Program-made: the position numbers and the translations under genes
Part shown: positions 8,983 to 25,545 of the stretch, piece after piece
How the letters are laid out: each line of letters begins with the position of its first letter
How positions within the stretch are numbered: position 1 is the stretch's first letter
IMG/VR virus record: IMGVR_UViG_3300025141_011426
Coordinates: 1 to 25,602 of that record
Source of the DNA: a virus
Reading direction: 5' to 3' (one strand)
DNA: 25,602 nt
Notes under the pieces: generated by a model
What the model was told of the DNA's origin: nothing
The model's database searches: none
What the model saw: only the letters and a program-made list of their open reading frames with translations

Positions 8983-9166
8983 AGTAAAAGGACTTGGAGA
9001 TGTGATATTTATAATAACAAAGTACACCGGAATAAGGTGGCTTGTTAAAAAGGTGTGGAGAGAAGACTGTGGTTGTGATGAAAGACAGGAAATTCTCAAT
9101 GATTTAGTACCTTTTAAAGATAAAAACAGAGTTATACAAAAACCAAAACCAACACCAAAGTTATGA
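8975..9166 (+). CDS. Small phage protein with a CGC motif
   Basis: 63 residues. The N-terminal half is hydrophobic and amphipathic (GLGDVIFIITKYTGIRWLV), followed by EDCGCDERQEILNDL (about 31-45) and a basic, proline-rich tail. Short proteins with CGC followed by a charged ...R..LN helix occur, as I recall, in phages of Bacteroidota, without known function. The CxC pair could bind metal or be redox active. ATG at 8975 is chosen; a GTG one codon earlier (8972) is also open. The start lies inside the end of nrdA, and the stop overlaps the next ATG, so it is coupled to both neighbours. Confidence 0.7.
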   Translation: MDKVKGLGDVIFIITKYTGIRWLVKKVWREDCGCDERQEILNDLVPFKDKNRVIQKPKPTPKL

Positions 9167-10446
9167 CAATTAAAAATGGTACAATTTTTGTACAGATTGC
9201 AAGTTATAGAGATCCAGAATTAAAACCAACATTAGAGGATATCATAGATAAAGCAGATAATCCTGATAGATTAAAAATCTGCGTAGCATGGCAACATACA
9301 TGTGAAGATGAATGGGATACGTTAGATGAGTATTTAAATGATGATAGATTTATTATCATAGATATTCCTCATACTGAAACTAATGGTACTTGTTGGGCTA
9401 GAAATACTATACAACAAAAATACAACGGAGAAGATTATACTTTACAGTTAGATTCTCATCATAGATTCGTAAAAGGATGGGATAGTAAATGTATAAGAAT
9501 GTTAAAACAGTTACAGAAAAAAGGACATAAAAAACCTTTATTAACTGGATATATACCTTCTTATAATCCTAAGAATGATCCTGAAGAAAGAGTCGATTCT
9601 CCTTGGAAAATGGATTTTGATAGATTTACACCTGAAGGAGTCATATTTTTCCTACCAGCTACTATTGATGATTGGAAAGAAAGAAACGAACCAGTACCTG
9701 CTAGATTCTTTTCAGCACACTTTACATTTACTTTAGGTATATTTTGTAATGAAGTACAACACGATCCTAAATATTATTTTCATGGAGAAGAAATAGCATT
9801 AGCAGTGAGAGCATATACTCATGGTTATGATTTATTTCACCCTCATAGAATAATTGCATGGCATGAATATACTAGAGTAGGGAGAGCTAAGCATTGGGAT
9901 GATGATGATTCATGGGTAGATAGAAATAAAACTACCTTTTATAGACTTAAAGGACTATTAGGTACTGATGGTACTGTATGTACTCCATGTATGAAAAAAC
10001 AATTAGTTCCTTATTACTTAGGTGAAGAAAGAACATTAGCAGATTATGAAAAATATGCAGGTATAAGATTTAAAGATAGAGGAATACAGCAATATACATT
10101 AGATAAAGTAGGATACCCTCCTAACCCAGAAGTAGAAGATTATGAAAATTCATTTCATAAAGTATTTAGACACTGTATCGATATACATACTAATGATGTG
10201 CCTGAAAAAGATTATGATTTTTGGGCAGTAGCATTTCATGACGAAAACGGTAAAGATATACACAGAGAAGATGCTTCAAAAGAAGAAGTAGCTAATTTAA
10301 TAGCCACACAGAAAGATGGATGGATAAACCTTTGGAGAACTTATACAGGACCACTTCCTTCAAGTTGGAGTGTATGGCCTTATTCTAAGAGCAAAGAATG
10401 GTGTAATAGATTAAGTGGGAATTTAGGAATAGAAAAAAATGGCTAA
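9163..10446 (+). CDS. GlcNAc-type glycosyltransferase (GT-A fold, PF11397-like)
   Basis: Likely transfers a sugar, perhaps N-acetylglucosamine, from a nucleotide donor. The N-terminus IFVQIASYRDPEL, then ARNTIQQKY, the LDSHHRF motif (Asp97, His99, in place of DxD), and later FHGEEIALAVRAYTHGYD and IIAWHEYTR match the Skp1-GnT-like family that is common in phages and Bacteroidota. The catalytic part covers about 1-270. The remaining 150 residues (DYDFWAVAFHD, PSSWSVWPYSKS) form a tail I do not recognise. The ATG overlaps the previous stop by four bases, and the end overlaps the carbamoyltransferase start. This opens the decoration gene block. The acceptor is unknown. Confidence 0.82.
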   Translation: MTIKNGTIFVQIASYRDPELKPTLEDIIDKADNPDRLKICVAWQHTCEDEWDTLDEYLNDDRFIIIDIPHTETNGTCWARNTIQQKYNGEDYTLQLDSHHRFVKGWDSKCIRMLKQLQKKGHKKPLLTGYIPSYNPKNDPEERVDSPWKMDFDRFTPEGVIFFLPATIDDWKERNEPVPARFFSAHFTFTLGIFCNEVQHDPKYYFHGEEIALAVRAYTHGYDLFHPHRIIAWHEYTRVGRAKHWDDDDSWVDRNKTTFYRLKGLLGTDGTVCTPCMKKQLVPYYLGEERTLADYEKYAGIRFKDRGIQQYTLDKVGYPPNPEVEDYENSFHKVFRHCIDIHTNDVPEKDYDFWAVAFHDENGKDIHREDASKEEVANLIATQKDGWINLWRTYTGPLPSSWSVWPYSKSKEWCNRLSGNLGIEKNG

Positions 10447-12022
10447 TATAGCGTTTTATGGGTCTCATAATGCTGCTGTAGCTGTAGAACAAAACGGTAA
10501 AGTTTTAACAGTTATAGAGATAGAAAGATTTCTGAATACTAAAAATGCAGGGTATGGACAATACCTTATATCATATACTCGTCCAAAATTAATTAATTAT
10601 ATTCTAGATTATATCTATAAAACCTATGGTATAAAAACATATGATACATGTTATTACCAGAATACTGATACAATAGAAGGTTCAAAAGGAAAAGTTCATT
10701 ACGAAAGATTAATTCCTGCTAAAAATTATGTTGATTGTTTACATCATTACAGTCATGCAGCAAGCGGTTTTTATCAAACTGATTACAACAAAGCTTTGAT
10801 AATATCATTTGATGGAGGAGGAAACGATGGTTATTTTAATATATACCATGCTAAAGATAGAAATAATATTGAGATACTTTTTAAAGATAATATTGATTTA
10901 GGTTTTCCTTATATGATTTTTGGTAATTATTTGAACGATATTAAAATGGAACCTGCCCTTAATATAGGTAACTTAGTTTACTCAGGAAAATTAATGGGAT
11001 TATGTTCTTACGGTAAAGTGAATAAAGAATGGTTACCACATTTTAAAGAATTTTACTTTTCTAAACCTGATGGTGAAAACTACCTTGGTCTATTAGAAAT
11101 ATTATCTGAAAAAACTGGAATAAAATTCGATGTTGAAAAAAGGTTAAAAGATCAAGAAGCTTATGATGTTGCAGCAACTTCTCAAGAAGCATTTGAACAA
11201 GCATTTTACCAGGTTTCTAAACCTTATATAGAAAAATACCCTGATATACCTATAATTTTAGTAGGAGGCTGTGCATTAAATATTATTCTTAATAGTAAAG
11301 TTAAGAAAAAATTTAAAAGAGAAGTATTTGTACCACCTAATCCTAACGATTGCGGATTAGCTTCTGGTATGATATTAGATCATATAAAACCAAAAAAAGC
11401 TATAGATTTAACTTATTCTGGAATTGAAGTTTTAGATAAAAACATGTTAATGTACCACGTAGAAAATAAAAGAGGAAATGAAGTAGACTTTAAAGAACTA
11501 TCTAAACATTTAAATGAAGGCAGCATAGTAGGAGTTGTAAGAGGACAATCAGAACATGGACCTAGAGCATTAGGTAATAGAAGTATTTTATGTAACCCAG
11601 GTATTGAAAATATGAAAGATCTTCTTAATAAAAAAGTTAAAAACAGAGAATGGTATCGTCCTTTCGCCCCTGTATGTAGATTAGAAGATGTTAATAAATA
11701 TTTTAATTTTGAGGGAGAAAGTAGATTTATGAGTTTTTGTCCTACTGTAAAAGCTAAATGGAGAAAAAAACTTTCTTCTATTACTCATGTAGATAATACT
11801 GCAAGAATACAGACAGTTACAAAAGAACAAAATGAATGGTTGTATAATTTACTTACTGAGTTTGAAAAAATATCAGGATATGGAGTTTTATTAAATACAT
11901 CATTTAACGTTAACGGTAAACCTATATTATCAAGCTATTCAGACGCACTAAAAGTATTCTTAGAATCTGAAATGGATAAATTAGTTTTAGAAAATTATTA
12001 TTTTAAATGGAAACACGTTTAG
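10439..12022 (+). CDS. NodU-type O-carbamoyltransferase (first copy)
   Basis: Predicted to transfer a carbamoyl group from carbamoyl phosphate, via carbamoyl-AMP, to a hydroxyl. The N-terminal Kae1-like domain has GSHNAA (8-13), HHYSHAA with metal-binding His102, His103 and His106, SFDGGG, and GGCALN. The C-terminal domain has QSEHGPRALGNRSIL, REWYRPFAPV, TARIQTV and LNTSFNVNGKPI. The length of 527 is normal. Known family substrates include sugars of Nod factors and antibiotics. Phage members have been reported to carbamoylate 5-hydroxymethylcytosine in DNA, so DNA is a possible target. The neighbouring glycosyltransferases point equally to a glycan. It differs clearly from the second copy at 20184. 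Confidence 0.88.
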   Translation: MANIAFYGSHNAAVAVEQNGKVLTVIEIERFLNTKNAGYGQYLISYTRPKLINYILDYIYKTYGIKTYDTCYYQNTDTIEGSKGKVHYERLIPAKNYVDCLHHYSHAASGFYQTDYNKALIISFDGGGNDGYFNIYHAKDRNNIEILFKDNIDLGFPYMIFGNYLNDIKMEPALNIGNLVYSGKLMGLCSYGKVNKEWLPHFKEFYFSKPDGENYLGLLEILSEKTGIKFDVEKRLKDQEAYDVAATSQEAFEQAFYQVSKPYIEKYPDIPIILVGGCALNIILNSKVKKKFKREVFVPPNPNDCGLASGMILDHIKPKKAIDLTYSGIEVLDKNMLMYHVENKRGNEVDFKELSKHLNEGSIVGVVRGQSEHGPRALGNRSILCNPGIENMKDLLNKKVKNREWYRPFAPVCRLEDVNKYFNFEGESRFMSFCPTVKAKWRKKLSSITHVDNTARIQTVTKEQNEWLYNLLTEFEKISGYGVLLNTSFNVNGKPILSSYSDALKVFLESEMDKLVLENYYFKWKHV

Positions 12023-12906
12023 TATCAGCTTTTTATTTCGATAACTACGGAGGAGATCAGAGACCTCCTTATCATCTGCATAGTGCAGTAGCAAGATACC
12101 ATAGGTACCTTTACTCTATAGTGCAATTATCAAAAATGAATTTACCTATTAGGTTAGTTTGCGGTGATAACGTGTACGATGCATTAACTATTGAACTTCA
12201 ACATAACAACGTTAAAAATGTAGAAGTAGAAGTTAGGGATTTAGATAGTTTTAAATATTCAAAAAAAATACGAGACTTAAAAAGTAAATATCCTGATAAG
12301 TTTAACTTTTATCATGAAATAGATTGGGCTAAATTAGATTTATTGAATGAAGAATCTAAAAAAGGAGCTGACTACCTATACTGGATAGATTGTGGATTAT
12401 CTCACAGAGGATTATGGCCTAATAAGTACGCTAAAAATCCAAAAGAACTAACAGGCTTTTCTCACAATATAGAGAATTACAAATTCGACAAAATATTTAC
12501 ACCAGATTTTTTTAAACATATTAATAACTGGGTAGGAGATAAGTTAATTAATATTAAGAATAGGCAATTTTTTCATCCACAAGATCAAATTAATAGAATA
12601 TTTGGTGATTTAGGAGCTCCTGACGGTCAAACTATAGGAGGTATACTAGGAGGACATAATAGTAAGTTAGAAGAGTTTTTAAATGAATTCGATAGTAGAG
12701 CAGATAAATGTATTAGTGATGAATATCTTTTGAATCACGAAGGCATTTTGACACATATGGCAACAAGTAAACCTGAAAATTACAAATCTTGGTTATTTAC
12801 TACCTGGTACCATGAAAATACCGGAGGAATGGATTGGATAACCCCAGAATGGTTAGAAACACAAGTATCATTTTACGAATTTGTTAAAGAAATAGAGCAT
12901 GAGTAA
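12007..12906 (+). CDS. HtrL/YibB-like putative glycosyltransferase
   Basis: 299 residues. The best landmark is YLYWIDCGLSHRGLWP (about residues 125-140), which corresponds to the WIDxG segment of the HtrL/YibB family, in which the Asp is probably part of the nucleotide-sugar site. An early RLVSAFYFDNYGG start and GGILGGHNSK (about 214-223) are also consistent. The first 16 bases overlap the carbamoyltransferase end, and its stop overlaps the next gene, whose N-terminal half belongs to the same family. I infer sugar transfer in the same pathway. The exact reaction cannot be named. No membrane segment or signal peptide is seen. Confidence 0.6.
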   Translation: METRLVSAFYFDNYGGDQRPPYHLHSAVARYHRYLYSIVQLSKMNLPIRLVCGDNVYDALTIELQHNNVKNVEVEVRDLDSFKYSKKIRDLKSKYPDKFNFYHEIDWAKLDLLNEESKKGADYLYWIDCGLSHRGLWPNKYAKNPKELTGFSHNIENYKFDKIFTPDFFKHINNWVGDKLINIKNRQFFHPQDQINRIFGDLGAPDGQTIGGILGGHNSKLEEFLNEFDSRADKCISDEYLLNHEGILTHMATSKPENYKSWLFTTWYHENTGGMDWITPEWLETQVSFYEFVKEIEHE

Positions 12907-14578
12907 AAAAGTCACATTAGTCACAGGTCTTTGGGACATTAAGAGAGATACTTTAGAAGAAGGATGGAATAGATCTTTTGAGGATCATTATATATCCAAG
13001 TTTAAAGACTTATTAAACGTTCCATGTAATTTAATTATTTTTGGAGAAGAAGAATTAAAAGAAGTAGTTTTTAAAATTAGATCTGAAGAAAATACCCAAT
13101 TTATAGTCAGAAATCAAGACTGGTTCAAAAATGAATTTTACGAAAAAATTCAGTCTATAAGATCTAGCGAGGAATGGAAAAGTTTAGCACCTTGGTTGCC
13201 TGAATCTACTCAAGGTAAATTAGAGATGTATAATCCTTTAGTTATGTCAAAGATGTTTTTACTCAATGACGCAAGGATATTTGATAAATTTGAATCTGAA
13301 CACTTATACTGGATAGATGCAGCCTTATCTACTACTGTTAGCATGGGGTATTTTACGTCTGACAACGTCTTAGACAAACTCTTAGATAAGATAAGTAAAT
13401 TTTTATTCATCTGTTTCCCTTATGAGGCAAATACAGAAATTCACGGTTTTGCTTATCCGGAAATAAATACCTATACTCGTGGGAAAGATATAAAAATGGT
13501 AGCAAGAGGTGGATTTTTTGGTGGACCTGTAGATACTATAGGAGAGATAAATGCTAAATACTACGATTTAATGAGTACTACATTAAACGAAGGATATATG
13601 GGTACTGAAGAATCTTTATTTTCTTTACTTACCTACCAATTTCCTAATAAAGTATGTTATTCGAAAATTGAAGAAAATGGATTACTTTATTACTTTTTTG
13701 AGAAATTAAAAAATAATGAAGTAGTAATAGAATCAGTATTATCTAAAAATGCAATAAATCGTTTAGATTATAGAAAAGTAGCCCTTTATGTAATTACTTA
13801 TAACTCCCCAGATCAATTTAATACGTTATGTAAGTCTTTTGAACAGTATGATAAAGATTATTTAGACCTACCTAATCGTAAGATATTACTTAATAACTCT
13901 ATAGATAGATCCACTGATAAAGAATATGATAAATTATGTGAAAAATGGGGCTTTGAACAAATTAAGAAAGATAATATTGGTATATGTGGAGGAAGACAGT
14001 TTATAGCTGAGCATTTTGATGAACAAGAAGATTTAGAACATTATCTATTTTATGAGGATGATATGTTTTTCTATAACGGTAACGAAACTACATGTAAAAA
14101 CGGGTTTTTAAGAAAAGTTAGTGGTTTATATAAAAAATCGTTAGAGATTTGTAATGTTGAAAATCTTGATTACTTAAAACTTAACGTAACAGAATTTTTT
14201 GGTGATAATCTAAAGCAATGGGCATGGCATAATGTACCTTCTGATAAAAGAAAAGAGTACTTTCCTGATAATCCTGTAAAAAATAACCATACTTTTGATT
14301 TTCCTAACACAATATTTAGTAGTATTAAATCACATAAAGGTTTACCATATGCTTTAGGAGAAATATACTATTGTAACTGGCCACAAGTAATAACCAGAGA
14401 AGGGAGTAAAAAAATGTTTTTGGATACTAAGTGGGCTAACCCGTTTGAACAGACCTGGATGTCACATATATTTCAGTTAACTAGAGAAGAAATAGTTAGA
14501 AATGGAATATTACTATTAACTCCTACTGAACATGATAGATTCGATCATTACCCTAAAGAAGAAAGAAGAGAAAACTAG
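12899..14578 (+). CDS. Two-domain protein: HtrL/YibB-like region plus GT-A-like region
   Basis: 559 residues made of two apparent units. Residues 1 to about 285 start with KVTLVTGLWDIKRD and contain NPLVMSKMFLLNDA and LYWIDAALS, the HtrL/YibB pattern shared with the gene before it. Residues from about 293 begin a new Rossmann-like fold, KVALYVITYNSPDQFNTLCKS, with a LFYEDDMFFYNG segment (about 387-398) that looks like the DxD/EDD donor site of GT-A transferases. The two halves appear fused in frame. It is the last gene before P4, so it likely ends the decoration operon begun at 9163. Donor and acceptor are unknown. Confidence 0.62.
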   Translation: MSKKVTLVTGLWDIKRDTLEEGWNRSFEDHYISKFKDLLNVPCNLIIFGEEELKEVVFKIRSEENTQFIVRNQDWFKNEFYEKIQSIRSSEEWKSLAPWLPESTQGKLEMYNPLVMSKMFLLNDARIFDKFESEHLYWIDAALSTTVSMGYFTSDNVLDKLLDKISKFLFICFPYEANTEIHGFAYPEINTYTRGKDIKMVARGGFFGGPVDTIGEINAKYYDLMSTTLNEGYMGTEESLFSLLTYQFPNKVCYSKIEENGLLYYFFEKLKNNEVVIESVLSKNAINRLDYRKVALYVITYNSPDQFNTLCKSFEQYDKDYLDLPNRKILLNNSIDRSTDKEYDKLCEKWGFEQIKKDNIGICGGRQFIAEHFDEQEDLEHYLFYEDDMFFYNGNETTCKNGFLRKVSGLYKKSLEICNVENLDYLKLNVTEFFGDNLKQWAWHNVPSDKRKEYFPDNPVKNNHTFDFPNTIFSSIKSHKGLPYALGEIYYCNWPQVITREGSKKMFLDTKWANPFEQTWMSHIFQLTREEIVRNGILLLTPTEHDRFDHYPKEERREN

Positions 14579-14622: not shown

Positions 14623-14883
14623 ATGAAAGATGTAATTAAATTCCACGCCGAATGGTGTTCTCCATGCAGATATTATAAAACTGTATGGAATGAAGCTAAA
14701 GAAAAACATGGTGCTAACCATAACTTTATTGAAGTAGATATTGATAAAGATAATACCGGTTTAGCTGCTAAGTTTGGAGTAAAAAGCGTACCTACTACTG
14801 TAGTAGTAAAAGAAAACAAAGATTTCCAAAGTAAAGCAGGTGCTTTAGCATACGGAGATTTAGAAAAACTAATAAAAGGATAA
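14623..14883 (+). CDS. Thioredoxin-like protein
   Basis: Small dithiol oxidoreductase of 86 residues. The active site is AEWCSPCRYYK (Cys12, Cys15), and the cis-proline loop is KSVPTTVV (Pro57). The fold is nearly complete for a short thioredoxin (usual length about 105). It may reduce the C-terminal cysteine pair of the phage NrdA, although it sits 5.6 kb downstream rather than beside nrdA. It starts a small unit behind P4, and its stop overlaps the next ATG. Confidence 0.88.
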   Translation: MKDVIKFHAEWCSPCRYYKTVWNEAKEKHGANHNFIEVDIDKDNTGLAAKFGVKSVPTTVVVKENKDFQSKAGALAYGDLEKLIKG

Positions 14884-15229: not shown

Positions 15230-16081
15230 ATGGCAAAAAATGCTGTTTTATCATTAAGTGGAGGAATGGATTCTTCTACGTTATTGTTACATTTATTAAG
15301 AGAAGGCTATAATGTAACAGCACTCTCTTTTGATTACGGTCAAAAACATAGAGTAGAATTAGAAAGAGCTCAAGCTCTAATTGAGTATGTAAATAGTAAA
15401 TGTAATCAAGTTGTAGGTACTGAACCAGAAACTAACGCAACCATTGCAAAATTAAGGTATATGCCTGTAAGTTATCAAGTTATTAAACTTGATGGATTAG
15501 TTAATTTATTAGATTCGGCTTTAGTGGAAGGAGGAGATGACGTTCCGGAAGGTCACTATGAGCAAGATAATATGAAAGAGACTGTTGTTCCTAATAGAAA
15601 TAAAATATTCTCTTCTTTAACTCAAGCAGTAGCTTTATCTATTGCTAATAAAACAAAAGAAGATACTTTTATTAGTTTAGGTATTCATGCAGGTGATCAT
15701 GCAGTATATCCTGATTGCAGACAAGAATTTAGAGATGCTGATTTTGAAGCATTTAAAATGGGAAATTGGGATGCTGATAGAGTTAAGTTTTATACTCCTT
15801 ACTTAGATATCGATAAGTTCGGTATTTTGAAAGATGGAGAAAAAAGTTGCACAAGTTTAAATTTAGAATTCGATGAAGTCTATTCTAGAACTAATACTAG
15901 TTATAAGCCTTATCCTAGTGGGAACAGTGATTATAAGTCTGCTTCATCTGTTGAAAGGATTGAAGCGTTTATTGCTTTGGATCGTCCAGATCCCGTTCAA
16001 TATGAAGACGAAACTGGCCCAGTGGATTATGAAGTAGCTAAAAATCACGTTCAAAAAGTACTTGCAGAATACGTGGGATAA
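15230..16081 (+). CDS. queC: QueC-like 7-cyano-7-deazaguanine synthase lacking the zinc cysteines
   Basis: QueC turns 7-carboxy-7-deazaguanine into preQ0 using ATP and ammonia. The PP-loop SLSGGMDSS (8-16), SFDYGQKH (33-40), TVVPNRNKIFSS (118-129) and GIHAGDHAVYPDCR (151-164) fit the family closely. However, the C-terminal zinc motif (normally SCY ... CGxCxxC before VERIEAF) reads TSY at 223-225 and SDYKSASS at 233-240, so Ser224, Asp234, Ser237 and Ser240 stand where four cysteines are expected. The 283 residues exceed the usual 220-230 because of an insert around 85-115 and a C-terminal extension. QueD and QueE homologues lie 8 kb downstream. Its stop overlaps the sulfotransferase ATG by one base. 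It could have a changed substrate or simply a metal-free structure. Confidence 0.82.
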   Translation: MAKNAVLSLSGGMDSSTLLLHLLREGYNVTALSFDYGQKHRVELERAQALIEYVNSKCNQVVGTEPETNATIAKLRYMPVSYQVIKLDGLVNLLDSALVEGGDDVPEGHYEQDNMKETVVPNRNKIFSSLTQAVALSIANKTKEDTFISLGIHAGDHAVYPDCRQEFRDADFEAFKMGNWDADRVKFYTPYLDIDKFGILKDGEKSCTSLNLEFDEVYSRTNTSYKPYPSGNSDYKSASSVERIEAFIALDRPDPVQYEDETGPVDYEVAKNHVQKVLAEYVG

Positions 16082-16680
16082 TGAAAATTCTATTATTGGC
16101 TAATGCTAGAACAGGTTCTACCGTACTTTATACCGCTCTCAGTGAGATATTAGGTTTAAAGAAGTACGGTGAACCTTTTAATTATCACATGCGAGATAAA
16201 GCAGGTACTTTAATTAGCAAGTTTCCTTTAAAATTAGCAGATAACTGTATAGTAAAAACCCTCACAAATCACATTCCTAAAGAGTATACTGATACCGAAG
16301 TTAATTTTTATGATTACTGGAAGAGGTCTTTTGATAAAGTTATTTTATTAGGTAGAAATAATTTACAAGACATATACGAGAGTCAAGTGCATTTTAAAAA
16401 AGAGAATAAACACTGGCATGAGAAATACTACTACCAGGATAATTATACCTTTGAAAGTAAGTTATGGAAAAATTTAGTTGATTCAAATAATTATCTTAAA
16501 TGGTATAGTAAAAAATCTCATATTCCTATTACCTGGTATGAAGATTTATACAGTGGAGATAAAGATAAAATACAAAAATGTATAGATAAATGGGAGTTAC
16601 AGGTAGAAGTAGATCAAATTTACAGATATGTAAACCCAAAACATAGGTATAGACAGTTTGCAGAACAAACATTAATATGA
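16081..16680 (+). CDS. Putative PAPS-dependent sulfotransferase (first copy)
   Basis: 199 residues. The start MKILLLANARTGSTVLYTAL holds the 5'-phosphosulfate loop (Arg10-Thr11-Gly12-Ser13-Thr14) typical of carbohydrate sulfotransferases. VILLGRNNLQDIYESQ (about 87-102) provides the Arg92 and Ser101 expected for the 3'-phosphate site. ITWYEDL (about residue 150) matches the strand after it. The product of the next gene, APS kinase, would supply its PAPS donor, and the two overlap by four bases. The fold is shorter than most family members (250-300). The acceptor is unknown; nearby glycosyltransferase-like genes suggest a sugar. Confidence 0.72.
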   Translation: MKILLLANARTGSTVLYTALSEILGLKKYGEPFNYHMRDKAGTLISKFPLKLADNCIVKTLTNHIPKEYTDTEVNFYDYWKRSFDKVILLGRNNLQDIYESQVHFKKENKHWHEKYYYQDNYTFESKLWKNLVDSNNYLKWYSKKSHIPITWYEDLYSGDKDKIQKCIDKWELQVEVDQIYRYVNPKHRYRQFAEQTLI

Positions 16681-17141
16681 TATATTGGCTAACAGGGCAA
16701 CCTGCTCACGGAAAAACAGTTTTAGGTAATTTACTCAAAGATTATTTAGAGCATTCTAAAAACGATAAAGATCCTAATAAAAGGTATAAGGTTTTTAGGA
16801 TAGATGGAGATGATATGAGAGAACTATTTTCTAATAAAGACTATTCTATTAAAGGTAGAGTAGAAAATGTAGGAACAGCTCAAAGAATAGCTCATTATTT
16901 ACATAATCAAGGTAATGATGTAATAGTTTCATTAGTAGCTCCTTATATAGATCAAAGAGAAGATTTTAAAAAACTATTAGGAGAAAATATTACCGAAATA
17001 TATGTTCATACTACTGAACCTAGAGAAAGAGATCATTTTAAAGCAATAGCTTATATACCACCAGTAGAAAACTTTATAGATATAGATACTACTGATGATG
17101 AACCTAAAGAATCACTACTTAAAATCATACAACAAATATGA
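16677..17141 (+). CDS. cysC: Adenylylsulfate (APS) kinase
   Basis: Phosphorylates APS with ATP to give PAPS, the sulfate donor for sulfotransferases. The Walker A loop is TGQPAHGKT (6-14, Lys13), followed by RIDGDDMRELF (41-51), which is the DGDxxR motif, and GRVENVGTAQRIAHYL (60-75), which is the R-x-EN...R motif of the lid. VIVSLVAPY (82-90) matches the conserved SPY strand with Ala in place of Ser. The length of 154 is shorter than typical CysC (about 200). It is placed directly after a sulfotransferase with a four-base overlap, which strongly supports a sulfation role. APS itself must come from a host or phage ATP sulfurylase. Confidence 0.85.
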   Translation: MIYWLTGQPAHGKTVLGNLLKDYLEHSKNDKDPNKRYKVFRIDGDDMRELFSNKDYSIKGRVENVGTAQRIAHYLHNQGNDVIVSLVAPYIDQREDFKKLLGENITEIYVHTTEPRERDHFKAIAYIPPVENFIDIDTTDDEPKESLLKIIQQI

Positions 17142-17818: not shown

Positions 17819-18129
17819 ATATAGACGGAACTATATTTAAATACAGAAAGTTTGAGACATATGAAACTTCTCAAGCTGAACCAATAACAAGTACAGTAGA
17901 GTACTTAAGAAATAAAAAAGAACTCGGTCATATGATAGTTCTAACTACAGCTAGACCAGACTGGTTATATGAGCACACAGTTAGAGAGTTAAAAGTTAAC
18001 GATATACCTTTTGATAGATTAGTAATGGGTATAGAAAGAGGACCTAGATTTTTAATTAATGATAAGGATCCAAAAGTAAATGAAGATAGAGCAACAGCAA
18101 TTAATTTAATAAGAGATAAAGGAATATGA
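17791..18129 (+). CDS. HAD-family phosphatase, capsule-biosynthesis type
   Basis: Short phosphatase of 112 residues. Motif I is FVDIDGT (Asp10 nucleophile, Asp12). Motif II is LTTARP (Thr52 or Thr53). Motif IV is LINDKDPK (Asp91, Asp93). It resembles the small EcbF/BcbF-like phosphatases found in polysaccharide gene clusters. A sugar phosphate intermediate is the likely substrate. Removal of the 3'-phosphate from PAP, the product of sulfotransfer, is a speculative alternative. ATG at 17791 lies within the previous gene; the next in-frame Met falls after motif I, so this start is required. Confidence 0.8.
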   Translation: MDKKNTYFVDIDGTIFKYRKFETYETSQAEPITSTVEYLRNKKELGHMIVLTTARPDWLYEHTVRELKVNDIPFDRLVMGIERGPRFLINDKDPKVNEDRATAINLIRDKGI

Positions 18130-18479
18130 AAAAATACAGTATGTTTATTGGAAGATGGCAACCATGGCACAAAGGTCATAGGTGGTTAATCGATCAAAGG
18201 TTAAATGAAGGTAAAAACGTTTGGATAGCAATTAGAGATGTTGAACCTAACGAAAATCAACCTTGGACTCCACAAGAGGTAATGGAAAATCTTGAAAGTG
18301 AATTATCTGATTTAATTAATGAAGGTAGAATATTTATTAGTATAATACCTGATATAGAATCAGTAAATTATGGTAGAGGAGTAGGTTATGAAATTATAGA
18401 ACATGTCCCACCTGAAACTATAAAAGAAGTATCAGCAACAAAAATTAGAGCTGATCTTAGAGAACAAGGAAAATTATGA
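18126..18479 (+). CDS. HxGH nucleotidylyltransferase (NMN adenylyl-/cytidylyltransferase-like)
   Basis: 117 residues. The N-terminal FIGRWQPWHKGH (7-18) is the HxGH signature (His15, His18) of the nucleotidylyltransferase superfamily, closest in wording to the GRFQPFHxGH of NadR/NadM enzymes. VSATKIRADLREQGKL (102-117) holds the SxTxIR signature. It would transfer AMP or CMP to a phosphate. Candidate roles are NAD synthesis, making a nucleotide-activated sugar, or, more speculatively, making APS, since ATP sulfurylase belongs to the same superfamily. It overlaps both neighbours by four bases in the sulfation block. Confidence 0.8.
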   Translation: MKKYSMFIGRWQPWHKGHRWLIDQRLNEGKNVWIAIRDVEPNENQPWTPQEVMENLESELSDLINEGRIFISIIPDIESVNYGRGVGYEIIEHVPPETIKEVSATKIRADLREQGKL

Positions 18480-18979
18480 TAGGTACTTTTGATAAATTAT
18501 TATTATCAGATGAAGATTGTAATTCTATAAAACTATTATACGAGGATAAATTAATTCTCAGGGAAAGAAATATAAGAAGACAGAAAAATTATCATGAAAT
18601 TAAATCTGATTCATGGTTACATGAAAAAGTAAAAAATTTAATTGAACAAAATTTAGGTGAAAAATATTCTCTATTAGAAAGAGTTACTATCCTTAAATAT
18701 GAACCTGGAGATTTTTTCTCTAAACATATAGATGGATCTTATAATATTGGTTTATCTAAAACTCTTCCTTACCACTTTTACGGTGGAGCAGAACTATGTG
18801 AACGCAAAGAATTCAAAGGAGGAGAATTTTTTATAAAAGATAAAAATGTTGAATTTAAAAAAGGAAGGTTATTTACTCATGGTTTTGATGATACTCATGG
18901 AGTAAAGAAAGTTGAAGAAGGAATCAGATGGAGCATACATTTTTTAATCGAAGAAAAAAGAGAAAAGCAAATAATATAA
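18476..18979 (+). CDS. 2-oxoglutarate/Fe(II) dioxygenase (prolyl-hydroxylase-like)
   Basis: Iron-dependent hydroxylase of 167 residues. The metal triad is FSKHID (His84, Asp86) and DDTHGV (His141), with Arg151 (GIRWSIHF) to bind 2-oxoglutarate. YEPGDFFSKHIDG and KGGEFF are typical of the P4H-like double-stranded beta-helix. Substrates in phages can be proteins, nucleobases or sugars. It lies between a nucleotidylyltransferase and DUF2061, and could create a hydroxyl for later sulfation, carbamoylation or glycosylation. It does not show clear features of the TET/JBP group. Confidence 0.85.
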   Translation: MIGTFDKLLLSDEDCNSIKLLYEDKLILRERNIRRQKNYHEIKSDSWLHEKVKNLIEQNLGEKYSLLERVTILKYEPGDFFSKHIDGSYNIGLSKTLPYHFYGGAELCERKEFKGGEFFIKDKNVEFKKGRLFTHGFDDTHGVKKVEEGIRWSIHFLIEEKREKQII

Positions 18980-20029: not shown

Positions 20030-20184
20030 TAAAATTAGATGTAAAAGTAGGCGATACTATATTAGTAGGTCGTTTTAAAAATAAAAGAAGTAAAGTAAAA
20101 ACTATAGAGTATGATGAGTTTGGTATGCCTATAATAAATGGTAGACCGGCTTGTACTTTTAGATTAGTTAAAAACCCAAGATAA
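20026..20184 (+). CDS. 52-residue SH3/KOW-like small protein
   Basis: Short gene with an ATG overlapping the previous stop by four bases and a TAA sharing a base with the next ATG. The product runs MIKLDVKVGDTILVGRFKNK, then KTIEYDEFGMPIINGRPACTFR. The VGDTILVGRFKN start and the GMPIINGR turn suggest a small beta barrel. Similar short proteins occur, as I recall, in other T4-like phages, with unknown function. The tight fit between two genes and the protein-like composition support it being real. Confidence 0.72.
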   Translation: MIKLDVKVGDTILVGRFKNKRSKVKTIEYDEFGMPIINGRPACTFRLVKNPR

Positions 20185-21848
20185 TGATACAATTAGGAAT
20201 ATCAGCTTTTTACCATGATTCAGCAGCTTGTATAGTTCAGGATGGTAAAGTTTTAGCAGCAGCCGAAGAAGAAAGATTTACAGAAATTAAACATGATTCT
20301 TCTTTTCCTGTTAATGCTATAGCCTATGTATTATCGGAAGCAGGAATAGAGAATATAAATGATATTAATGAAGTATGTTGGTATGAAAAACCTAAGGTTA
20401 AGAAAAACAGAGTTCTCAAAACGTTTAATAAACATATATTCAAAACTTTTAGAAGTAGATGTATTTTTCTTTATAACTATTATTTTAATTCTCCTAAAAA
20501 TTTACTTAAACGTCATTTCCAATACAAAGGTTTAATAAAATACACAGATCATCATTTATCGCATGCTGCTTTTAGCTACTTTATAAGTCCATATAAAAAA
20601 GCTGCAATACTCACAGTTGACGGAGTTGGTGAATGGGAAACAATTACTATATCTAAAGGTGTAGGTCCTGATGTTACTAAAATGTATAGTATAGATTTTC
20701 CTAACTCTTTAGGAATGTTATACTCTACTGTTACTGCATATTTAGGATTTAAACCTAATGAAGGAGAATATAAAGTAATGGGGTTAGCACCTTTTGGAAA
20801 TCCGACTAAATACTTTAATAAATTATCAAAGATATTCGATAAGAAACAGTATTTAAAAATAGATCAAAAATACTTTACTTGGGAGTATTCTAAAGAAGTA
20901 ATGTTTGACTTAGAATTTTGTATGCTTTTAGGAATTCCTCCTAGATTAAAAGAAGAACCTATAACTCAAGATCATAAAGATTTAGCAGCAGCACTACAAA
21001 AAATTTACGAAAGAGAGTTTGAAAAGTTAGTTTATAAAGCAAAAGAACTTACTGATAGTCCTAATATATGTTTAGGTGGAGGATGTGCTTATAATGGAGT
21101 TGCAAATGTATTAGCGTACAAACACTTTAAATCCGTATTTATACCTTTTGCTCCTTCTGATGCTGGATCTGCAATCGGAGCTTGCCTAGTAAATGATCCA
21201 TACTCAGGTTATGCAGTAGATAATAGCACTCCTTATTTAGGAAATGGATATACGTACAATGAAATAAAAAAGATTTTAATTAACTATAAAGATAAAGTAA
21301 CTGCTGAATATTTTGATTACGATAAACTTGTAGTAAAAACAGCAGAAATAATTAATAATCAAAAGATTGTAGCTTGGTTTCAAGGTAGAATGGAATTTGG
21401 AGCAAGAGCTTTAGGTAATCGTTCTATATTAGCTTCTCCTAGAGACGCAAGTATGAGAGATAAATTAAATAGAGTAATTAAAAAGAGAGAAGGTTTTAGA
21501 CCTTTTGCTCCTTCAGTAACAGTTAATCAAGCATCTACTTGGTTTGATTTACAACAAAGTGTTCCGTATATGAACATGGTACTACAGGCTAAAACTAATA
21601 AATTCCAAGCAGCAACTCATATAGATGGATCATGTAGAGTTCAGACAGTCGATAAATACCAAAATAAACTTTATTATAGTTTATTAAAAGAATTAGGTAA
21701 AATATCTGGTGCAGAAGTAGTTTTAAATACTTCATATAACCTAAAAGATCAAACAATAACCAGAACACCAGAGCAGGCTATAGAAAGATTTTTAGATTCT
21801 GATATAGATCACTTAGTAATAGATAAACTTATAGTAACTAAAAAATGA
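20184..21848 (+). CDS. NodU-type O-carbamoyltransferase (second copy)
   Basis: 554 residues with the full family architecture. The N-terminal Kae1-like domain has AFYHDSAACIV (His11, Asp12), AAEEERFT, TDHHLSHAAFSYF (His123, His124, His127), LTVDGVGEW, EGEYKVMGLAPFG and LGGGCAYNGVAN. The C-terminal domain has QGRMEFGARALGNRSIL, KREGFRPFAPSV, SCRVQTVD and LNTSYN. It looks closer to bacterial NodU/CmcH enzymes than the first copy at 10439, which lacks the HDSAA and GEYKVMGLAPFG wording. This suggests separate origins and different acceptors. It overlaps its neighbours by 1 and 4 bases and is followed by an RPD-motif protein and a sulfotransferase. Confidence 0.9.
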   Translation: MIQLGISAFYHDSAACIVQDGKVLAAAEEERFTEIKHDSSFPVNAIAYVLSEAGIENINDINEVCWYEKPKVKKNRVLKTFNKHIFKTFRSRCIFLYNYYFNSPKNLLKRHFQYKGLIKYTDHHLSHAAFSYFISPYKKAAILTVDGVGEWETITISKGVGPDVTKMYSIDFPNSLGMLYSTVTAYLGFKPNEGEYKVMGLAPFGNPTKYFNKLSKIFDKKQYLKIDQKYFTWEYSKEVMFDLEFCMLLGIPPRLKEEPITQDHKDLAAALQKIYEREFEKLVYKAKELTDSPNICLGGGCAYNGVANVLAYKHFKSVFIPFAPSDAGSAIGACLVNDPYSGYAVDNSTPYLGNGYTYNEIKKILINYKDKVTAEYFDYDKLVVKTAEIINNQKIVAWFQGRMEFGARALGNRSILASPRDASMRDKLNRVIKKREGFRPFAPSVTVNQASTWFDLQQSVPYMNMVLQAKTNKFQAATHIDGSCRVQTVDKYQNKLYYSLLKELGKISGAEVVLNTSYNLKDQTITRTPEQAIERFLDSDIDHLVIDKLIVTKK

Positions 21849-23890: not shown

Positions 23891-24367
23891 ATGAAAAAAA
23901 ATAAATTTACATCAACAAAAGTATTTGACGGCTACAGTACCGTATTTCGTCAACACAGAGCAGAAACAACTCATTGTAAGTATTTACACGGATATGGAGT
24001 GTCTTTTAAGATTTGGTTCGAAGGAGATCTAGATGAAAGAAATTGGGTTTGGGATTTCGGTGGTATGAAAAGAGCTAAAGGTACTATAGAAGGAATGTCT
24101 CCTAAGCAGTGGTTTGATTATATGTTTGATCATACCTTTATAGTAGCAGAAGATGATCCGTTTGTAGAATCTTTTAATAAGATGGATCAAGCAGGAGTTG
24201 CTCAAGTAAGAGTTATAGAAGCTACAGGAGCAGAGAAATTTGCTGAATTAGTCTATTTTAAAGTTAATGACTTCATACACTTAGAAACTGATGGTAGAGT
24301 AAAAGTAACGAAAGTAGAATTTAGAGAGCACGACAGAAATAGTGCTATATTTGAACCTGGTGAATAA
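23891..24367 (+). CDS. queD: QueD-like 6-carboxytetrahydropterin synthase, variant zinc site
   Basis: QueD converts dihydroneopterin triphosphate to 6-carboxytetrahydropterin, the second step of 7-deazaguanine synthesis. Visible: FRQHRAE (His22), catalytic Cys29 in HCKYLHGYG, zinc His33, VWDFGGMK (54-60), FDHTFIVAEDD (Asp80, His81), and a Glu in ATGAEKFAELV. The third zinc ligand, normally His in HGHxY, is Tyr35. The 158 residues are slightly longer than E. coli QueD (121). It lies three bases before queE. The family could also include pterin synthases, but the queE neighbour favours QueD. Confidence 0.82.
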   Translation: MKKNKFTSTKVFDGYSTVFRQHRAETTHCKYLHGYGVSFKIWFEGDLDERNWVWDFGGMKRAKGTIEGMSPKQWFDYMFDHTFIVAEDDPFVESFNKMDQAGVAQVRVIEATGAEKFAELVYFKVNDFIHLETDGRVKVTKVEFREHDRNSAIFEPGE

Positions 24368-24370
24368 AGT

Positions 24371-25147
24371 ATGTTAGGTAGAGTAAAGAATTATGATAAA
24401 AATTTACCTATAGTAGAGCTATATACTGCTGTTCAATCAGAAGGTAGTAGAGCTGGGTACCCTACAGTAGTAATTAGAACTACAGGGTGTACTCATAGAT
24501 GTTATTTTGGTGAAGGTGGATGGTGTGATTCTTGGTATACTAGTATTCATGCAGAAAAAGGTAAGTATACCTTTAATGATATAAAAAAAATGTATGATGA
24601 TAATCCTCAAATATCAGAAATGATGCTAACTGGGGGTTCTCCTACTATGCATAAAAAATTAGTAAATGAATTAACACATTTTGCACATGAAAGAAATATT
24701 TTTATTACTATTGAGACTGAAGGTAGCCATTTTGTTCCTACTGATTACCCTATTAACTTGCTTTCTATTAGTCCCAAGCTTAGTAATAGCATCCCCGTAC
24801 TTGGTGTACTTACACCTCAAGGAGCAGTAACTGATCAGAATATGATTGATAGGCATAATAAATATAGGTTAAATTATGATGCTATGGCTAAACAGATTGA
24901 ATATCATTCAGATTACCATATTAAACCTGTATGGGATGGTAGAGATCAAGATGCATTAAATGAAATATTAGATTTCATAAAAGACTTGAAAATACCTAAC
25001 GATAAAGTTTGGTTTATGCCTGCTGGAGATAGCAGAGAAGCGTTATATAAATCTTACCCTGTGTTATTTGACTGGGTTAGAGATAATGGTTATAGAATGA
25101 CTTGGAGGCCTCATATTATTGCTTTCGAGGATAAAAGAGAAGTTTAA
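24371..25147 (+). CDS. queE: QueE-like 7-carboxy-7-deazaguanine synthase (radical SAM)
   Basis: Radical SAM enzyme that contracts 6-carboxytetrahydropterin to 7-carboxy-7-deazaguanine. IVELYTAVQSEGSRAGYPTVVIR is the typical QueE opening. The cluster cysteines are Cys40, Cys44 and Cys52 (GCTHRC then GGWCDSW). The spacing is C-x3-C-x7-C instead of C-x3-C-x2-C, which implies a five-residue insert. The SAM-binding GGE is GGS (LTGGSP), and ITIETEGS matches IETNGT. SPKLS (about 133-137) and KPVWD fit the family. It is coupled to the phosphoribosyltransferase by a one-base overlap. The length of 258 is normal. Confidence 0.85.
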   Translation: MLGRVKNYDKNLPIVELYTAVQSEGSRAGYPTVVIRTTGCTHRCYFGEGGWCDSWYTSIHAEKGKYTFNDIKKMYDDNPQISEMMLTGGSPTMHKKLVNELTHFAHERNIFITIETEGSHFVPTDYPINLLSISPKLSNSIPVLGVLTPQGAVTDQNMIDRHNKYRLNYDAMAKQIEYHSDYHIKPVWDGRDQDALNEILDFIKDLKIPNDKVWFMPAGDSREALYKSYPVLFDWVRDNGYRMTWRPHIIAFEDKREV

Positions 25148-25545
25148 TGAATAAAGTTTATATATCTTGGAATCAGGTAAATAAACTACTTGATAAAATT
25201 CACGAACAAGCTAGTAACGAAGTAAAATACGTAGCAGGAATCCCAAGAGGAGGAAGTATACTAGCAGTTTTGTATTCTCATAGATTTAACGTAGAGTTTA
25301 TGGAATACCCTAGCAACCACTACCCTCAGTTATTAATATTAGACGATATAGCAGATTCTGGTAAGACGTTAAAACAGTGGAAAGATAAATTTAATGTTCC
25401 GTTGTATGGTACTCTTCATTATAAAAGAAGTTCAAGCGAAAAACCAGATTTTTACGGCAGAAAAATGATAAAAGAAGATAATTGGATAGTATACCCTTGG
25501 GAAAGAAAAGACTCAAATAAGATACAAAATTATTTGGAAAATTGA
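25147..25545 (+). CDS. Phosphoribosyltransferase-like protein
   Basis: 132 residues of the type I phosphoribosyltransferase fold. VAGIPRGG (29-36) is the pyrophosphate loop, and LLILDDIADSGKTL (about 82-95) is the PRPP motif with its acidic pair. The flexible-loop and hood parts are short, and the product seems smaller than hypoxanthine-guanine enzymes (about 170). Coupling to queE suggests a purine or deazapurine base as substrate, for example forming a nucleotide from a 7-deazaguanine base. That is inference. P5 overlaps its last codons. Confidence 0.8.
   Translation: MNKVYISWNQVNKLLDKIHEQASNEVKYVAGIPRGGSILAVLYSHRFNVEFMEYPSNHYPQLLILDDIADSGKTLKQWKDKFNVPLYGTLHYKRSSSEKPDFYGRKMIKEDNWIVYPWERKDSNKIQNYLEN

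Follow-up and report, generated by a model that had tools for sequence, protein, structure and literature searches.

The protein encoded at 15230..16081 (+ strand) of the window, the whole 25,602-nucleotide stretch of DNA from a marine virus analysed here, probably acts as a preQ0 synthase (QueC) despite lacking the zinc site usual in this enzyme. Its 283 residues were assigned to a zinc-free QueC subfamily from matches to PF06508 and phrog_1550 and from tree placement. The subfamily is large and is found beyond phages too. We infer that the window protein binds no zinc and synthesizes preQ0, and metal independence is the likely meaning of the replacement of its zinc ligands.

Pfam matched the open reading frame to the QueC family PF06508 with an E value of 9e-37 over nearly the whole profile, and the QueC-like family phrog_1550 matched it from profile position 144 onward only. 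Against the QueC equivalog model TIGR00364 (NCBIfam) it scores 124 bits, below the cut-off of 150. The 283 residues do not include the N-terminal glutamine amidotransferase domain of Gat-QueC. The initial annotation described the PP-loop and base-binding motifs as intact, and alignment with E. coli QueC bears this out. The PP-loop SGGMDS (residues 10-15; 15257..15274) aligns with E. coli SGGQDS; YGQKHRVE (residues 36-43; 15335..15358) aligns with YxQxHxxE, in which Y35 is essential (PMC13329287); and VPNRN (residues 120-124; 15587..15601) and YPDC (residues 160-163; 15707..15718) follow, all on the + strand. The QueC features that the protein has are SGGxDS, the substrate motifs YxQxHxxE, VPxRN and YPDC, and queD and queE nearby. 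The E. coli mutants Y35A, R99A, Y131A and Y189A are inactive (PMC13329287). The corresponding residues of the window protein, Y36, R123, Y160 and Y225, are all present, and the alignment shows none of the residues with a known essential part in preQ0 formation by E. coli QueC to be missing. The insert and C-terminal extension mentioned in the same annotation are also real. The insert spans about residues 58-79 (15401..15466, + strand) and its length differs among subfamily members, the L005 version being shorter; the extension (about residues 258-283; 16001..16078, + strand) forms a predicted helix at residues 267-282 in the AlphaFold2 model.

The QueC zinc motif, C(x)8CxxCxxC, is absent from the window protein and from the members of its lineage (lineage I) that were read. 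The zinc-site equivalent comprises residues 221-247, TNTSYKPYPSGNSDYKSASSVERIEAF (15890..15970, + strand), as established from codons and alignments. Here C188, C197, C200 and C203 of E. coli QueC (reference row L287, NZ_CP141089.1) align with S224, D234, S237 and S240, the replacements that had been proposed from the window sequence. Their codons, read directly at 15899-15901, 15929-15931, 15938-15940 and 15947-15949, agree with the position that the initial annotation gave for the region. Y225, the equivalent of essential Y189, lies inside it. The correspondence of the loops is secure because no gap interrupts the VERxEAF anchor in the alignments with E. coli QueC and with phage QueCs that have the zinc site, for example CVERAEAF in Finch against SVERIEAF in the window. 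Among 69 distinct aligned subfamily proteins, C163 of YPDC is the sole conserved cysteine, so zinc ligands are not provided by cysteine elsewhere in the protein; alignment of the phage homologues thus matches the loop to the zinc motif and finds no cysteines supplied from another site. Two records in the data, filed as Acinetobacter phage (L105, CAKLQF020000007.1) and as E. coli plasmid (L287), appear to be bacterial chromosome sequence.

Canonical QueC (PF06508 cluster 1; E. coli, B. subtilis 3BL5) has in common with the window protein the PP-loop, YxQxHxxE, VPxRN, YPDC, K196, the tyrosine after the first zinc ligand, adjoining queD/queE and the fold (VIA-align Z about 18), but the window protein has S/D/S/S for the cysteines, an insert near residue 58, a longer loop and a C-terminal helix. 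Within PF06508, the LarE and GMP synthase branches are PP-loop families that likewise have no QueC zinc motif; the QueC substrate motifs, all present in the window protein, are missing from them too.

The replacement is a fixed property of the viral lineage. When the window protein was used to scan IMG/VR, the best 80 of at least 599 relatives were kept, and another query added 26 more of the group. The cysteine motif is absent in 105 of 105 lineage-I sequences read from this set (best 80 of at least 599, plus the 26), so the replacement is neither chance nor a sequencing error. All four replaced positions are invariant in 69 distinct aligned lineage-I proteins, and the invariant residues are T221, N222, T223, S224, Y225, K226, P227, S233, D234, Y235, K236, S237, A238, S240, V241, E242 and R243, with S239 in 68 of the 69. 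The 26 later relatives may have F and R in place of Y235 and K236, and S in place of A238. The loss was coordinated and not a single mutation, as had been suggested from the window alone. Both TCN and AGY codons are used at the three serine positions in 83 distinct nucleotide sequences, a set that was chosen by a motif naming the residues and so shows codon variety, the invariance coming from the 69-protein alignment. The cultured Flavobacterium phage immuto also has no zinc cysteines, and its loop is the same except that the insert within it is longer.

Zinc loss is not confined to phages. A GTDB scan revealed zinc-free homologues at 41-56% identity in bacteria and archaea, including Cysteiniphilum, Facilibium, another Thiotrichales isolate, Pirellulaceae, Verrucomicrobiota, Neomarinimicrobiota and marine group II archaea; L290-L297, with 64-70% identity, appear to be viral contigs binned into MAGs. 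The cellular forms share the zinc-free loop and one clade with the window protein, but most have G[RK]SxGxTGSDVERILAF where the window has SDYKSASSVERIEAF, and many of those from marine group II are MsrB fusions. All 18 genomes searched have the zinc-free homologue as their sole strong PF06508 match, the remainder being weak partial matches of the sort expected from other PP-loop proteins. TGT was found in 17 and PTPS/QueD in all 18 of these genomes. QueF scored above its cut-off in nine and QueA was found in eight, both restricted to bacteria and present in the majority of these; archaea without QueF and QueA are as expected for archaeosine makers. The 18 genomes are mostly MAGs, in which absences are weak evidence; isolates among them are Cysteiniphilum and the Thiotrichales strain. 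The Cysteiniphilum queC is directly adjoined by queE and queD, and in a marine group II archaeon folE, queE, queC and queD lie in a row. There is no apparent other source of QueC in these organisms, and this is the strongest indirect evidence for preQ0 synthesis by the zinc-free form: since many marine bacteria and archaea were found to have no other QueC, it probably does the normal job without zinc.

The change is nearly, but not strictly, all-or-none; a planctomycete homologue (L361) keeps cysteine at position 1 alone. In the marine group II fusions the zinc-free QueC is followed by a methionine sulfoxide reductase B (SelR) domain at the C terminus. One, L339:4965-6146, lying between folE-queE and queD, was tested with Pfam, and twelve more were recognized by sequence (L306-L310, L315, L316, L320, L322, L337, L352 and L359). 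A redox link between the fusion and cysteine loss is conceivable.

Trees were computed without the zinc-loop columns. In the first, which contained viral and standard cellular rows, the window clade (support 100/100) was placed among HAGDH-type QueCs. In the second, to which new cellular rows were added, it groups with Cysteiniphilum/Thiotrichales (100/99), and this group is nested in a larger clade (100/100) in which most of the cellular QueCs are zinc-free. The HAGDH-type QueCs of actinophages (Finch, CRB2, Sonali) belong to the same broad clade and share GHYxxDNM, TVVPNRN, HAGDHAVYxDCR and VERxEAF with the window protein, but they have a CGxCxxC zinc knuckle and are 35-38% identical to it. 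Rosebush, another mycobacteriophage, carries dPreQ0 (PMC6884629).

A second group of zinc-free phage QueCs, lineage II, includes those of R5C, Pan1, HTN2, RHEph06, ZHS and 83AMN and 73 of 80 IMG/VR loci, and branches apart from the window clade, beside canonical and CAjan-type QueC. In this lineage the motif TCY..PPCGKCHACVLRA has become TSY..PPTDMNHANVLRA, all four positions being changed while the surrounding frame is kept. The two lineages are alike in having four cysteines replaced in an otherwise unchanged motif and in their DNA-modification gene clusters, but the replacements in lineage II are S/A, T/V, N/D and N/T/S, its branch is separate, and some of its relatives still have, or regained, cysteines. 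Lineage II lost its zinc cysteines separately from the window lineage. QueF is encoded within 4 kb of queC in 27 of the 73 zinc-free lineage II loci and in six of the seven zinc-bearing ones; since it lies near both kinds, zinc loss does not go along with the downstream step.

Zinc-bearing rows are nested among zinc-free ones in both lineages (Bacteroidales/Spirochaetia; L267, L272, L279 and L286), and the minimum number of state changes is three in the first tree and four in the second. Regain, recombination or extra losses are possible reasons for the nesting. Close relatives in lineage II differ at all four zinc positions together, with four cysteines in L267, L270, L272, L279, L281, L283 and L286 against A/T/D/T in L210 and L222; this four-position switch may reflect recombination, or all four cysteines may have been regained. 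Scarcity of zinc in the sea is a partial explanation at best, because lineage II includes phages of Rhizobium, Pseudomonas and Stenotrophomonas.

Pathway genes accompany queC in the window and in related phages. On the + strand of the window are homologues of queD (6-carboxytetrahydropterin synthase; 23891..24367; PF01242, phrog_2389) and queE (7-carboxy-7-deazaguanine synthase; 24371..25147; phrog_2076, with a TIGR03365 match below its cut-off), a phosphoribosyltransferase-like gene (25147..25545; PF00156) syntenic with the immuto pathway cluster, and a thioredoxin-like gene (14623..14883; PF00085) syntenic with immuto gp022. The immuto genes, syntenic with the window, are those for thioredoxin, QueC, QueD, QueE, phosphoribosyltransferase, FolE, an annotated DpdA, formyltransferase and QueF. 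Among the larger records of relatives, each of which holds a single QueC, FolE is present in 19 of 20, and QueF and formyltransferase co-occur in the same 13 of 20; a homologue of the annotated immuto DpdA was found in 20 of 21 relatives. QueF in these relatives belongs with the bimodular nitrile reductases (QueF_N + QueF) and has an SNC...TNQPDWG segment that we take to be catalytic. Since the nitrile reductase QueF needs preQ0, the zinc-free QueC of QueF-bearing phages is expected to make preQ0. A 2023 study of phage 7-deazaguanines reportedly described formylated dPreQ1 and named a formyltransferase DpdN, and the formyltransferase beside dpdA and queF would fit this.

The immuto protein is DpdA by its depositors' annotation, and comparison of its family with TGT/DpdA by Pfam, profile search and hhalign gave weak or no support. 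The TGT Pfam model PF01702 had no match in 14 relatives' records. The annotated DpdA of immuto and its relatives (L082:33474-34268; phrog_19058, no function given) has no TGT Pfam match and was matched weakly by a profile made from further phage DpdA proteins. A second group of relatives, clade B, has neither QueF nor formyltransferase, but a divergent DpdA homologue about 33-44% identical to that of immuto, closely upstream of queC in many loci. In G002, whose QueC is 89% identical to that of the window, the DpdA homologue lies about 10.4 kb after the start of queC, just past the point that corresponds to the window end. The window record thus stops before the expected dpdA, so we infer the downstream genes of the window virus, and with them the downstream pathway steps.

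The predicted structure is that of a QueC. The AlphaFold2 model of the window protein (48-sequence alignment) has a mean pLDDT of 92.8, with values above 90 through the loop, and that of a lineage II member 90.2. Foldseek ranked QueC 2PG3 and 3BL5 at the top, and VIA-align gave Z values of 19.7 for Cap9, 18.5 for QatC and 18.4 for QueC 3BL5. The confidently modelled loop and the QueC fold support the metal-independent fold that had been one of two suggestions for this protein, with the qualification that a fold predicted without metal cannot show that no metal is bound. The other suggestion, a new reaction, was not supported: the essential residues are kept, queD and queE are in the window, the QueF of relatives needs preQ0, and the zinc-free homologue is the sole full-length QueC in cells with genes for tRNA queuosine or archaeosine.

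ATP and zinc have both been stated to be required for QueC function, and the zinc motif has been described as a QueC hallmark (PMC13329287). The lack of the hallmark here argues for a zinc-free variant distinct from canonical QueC, and for a hallmark that is too narrow. No report of a zinc-free QueC, or assay of any member, was found in the literature searched, which left most subscription journals outside. In the window virus the neighbouring QueD and QueE would supply 7-carboxy-7-deazaguanine (CDG), which QueC would convert to 7-cyano-7-deazaguanine (preQ0) with ATP and ammonia. PreQ0 would then probably be reduced to preQ1 by QueF, and a DpdA-type transglycosylase would probably insert preQ1 in the DNA of the phage, the inserted base possibly being formylated. 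The canonical tetracysteine zinc knuckle is taken to fix the loop of the essential tyrosine (Y225) against the C-terminal helix; in the window QueC the polar Ser/Asp/Ser/Ser loop, presumably hydrogen-bonded, would do this holding.

Gene co-occurrence might fit a different product as well in phages without QueF. The zinc-free enzyme might stop at 7-amido-7-deazaguanine (ADG) or use CDG otherwise, so that another base would enter the DNA, in the QueF-less clade at least, where the divergent DpdA homologue and the lack of QueF and formyltransferase make a context that does not force preQ0. The modified nucleoside dADG is known in phage DNA (PMC6884629), and a passage of PMC8306585 cites it in Campylobacter phages. 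However, QueF-bearing clade A, to which immuto belongs, has the same loop, all residues essential for full preQ0 synthesis are retained, and the zinc cysteines are intact in Campylobacter phage CP220, which is reported to have dADG. Zinc loss and ADG thus do not go together, and zinc loss is ruled out as a marker of dADG. We therefore consider a changed product unlikely, and give an equally small chance to the idea that in the QueF-less clade the zinc-free loop marks a changed final step, an ADG stop or transfer of CDG, with a new 7-deazaguanine product.

It is quite unlikely that the loop still binds a metal, through Asp/Ser or backbone ligands or as a cation other than zinc. Asp234 is invariant in the 69 distinct proteins, and Ser and Asp are able to bind Mg or Ca, but the lineage I loop has no conserved His or Cys, and lineage II and the cellular forms carry Thr, Asn, Asp, Ser, Ala or Gly, so the ligand set is not constant.

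An enzyme like Cap9 or QatC, which would attach CDG to a partner protein's N terminus and release no free base, is very improbable, even though Cap9 gave the highest structural Z and shares the GIHAG segment as well as the fold. Cap9, of type IV CBASS, is minimal, modifies a CD-NTase and retains its zinc cysteines (PMC13329287), whereas its motif CE(x)6CxxCxxC is absent from the window QueC. Pfam, with which part of the window genes were scanned, showed no CD-NTase among these. The neighbours are QueD and QueE, and in relatives FolE, DpdA and QueF; the cellular homologues lie in 7-deazaguanine gene clusters, and the HAGDH-type segment occurs in zinc-bearing phage QueCs too. Decay of a QueC kept by chance, with preQ0 supplied by the host, has almost nothing to recommend it beyond the description of the zinc motif as a hallmark (PMC13329287), and is ruled out by hundreds of open, highly conserved copies (at least 599 relatives), by a loop conserved with both serine codon boxes, and by cellular genomes that have the pathway and only this form of QueC.

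If preQ0 synthesis without the zinc site is the correct reading, natural zinc-free QueCs from phages, bacteria and archaea, with at least two losses, would show the metal to have a structural role in which it can be replaced. They are ready-made sequences for testing the zinc requirement, and they warn that likely preQ0 synthases escape annotation by motif, the TIGR00364 cut-off included. One may speculate that such enzymes serve 7-deazaguanine synthesis by phages and surface-ocean microbes where zinc is scarce or thiols are readily oxidised, a speculation limited by the phages of soil and plant-associated hosts in lineage II.

Other features of the window were recorded. There is no Rfam match within it. 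Between queC and queD lie genes for an adenylylsulfate kinase-like (16677-17141), a cytidylyltransferase-like (18126-18479) and a 2OG-Fe(II) oxygenase-like protein (18476-18979). Two full-length NodU/CmcH-type carbamoyltransferases (Carbam_trans_N, _C) are encoded about 8 kb apart, at 10439-12022 and 20184-21848. Beside the first of them are a GlcNAc-type glycosyltransferase (PF11397) and an HtrL_YibB-like protein, at 9163-10446 and 12899-14578, and this group is possibly a sugar-modification cassette.
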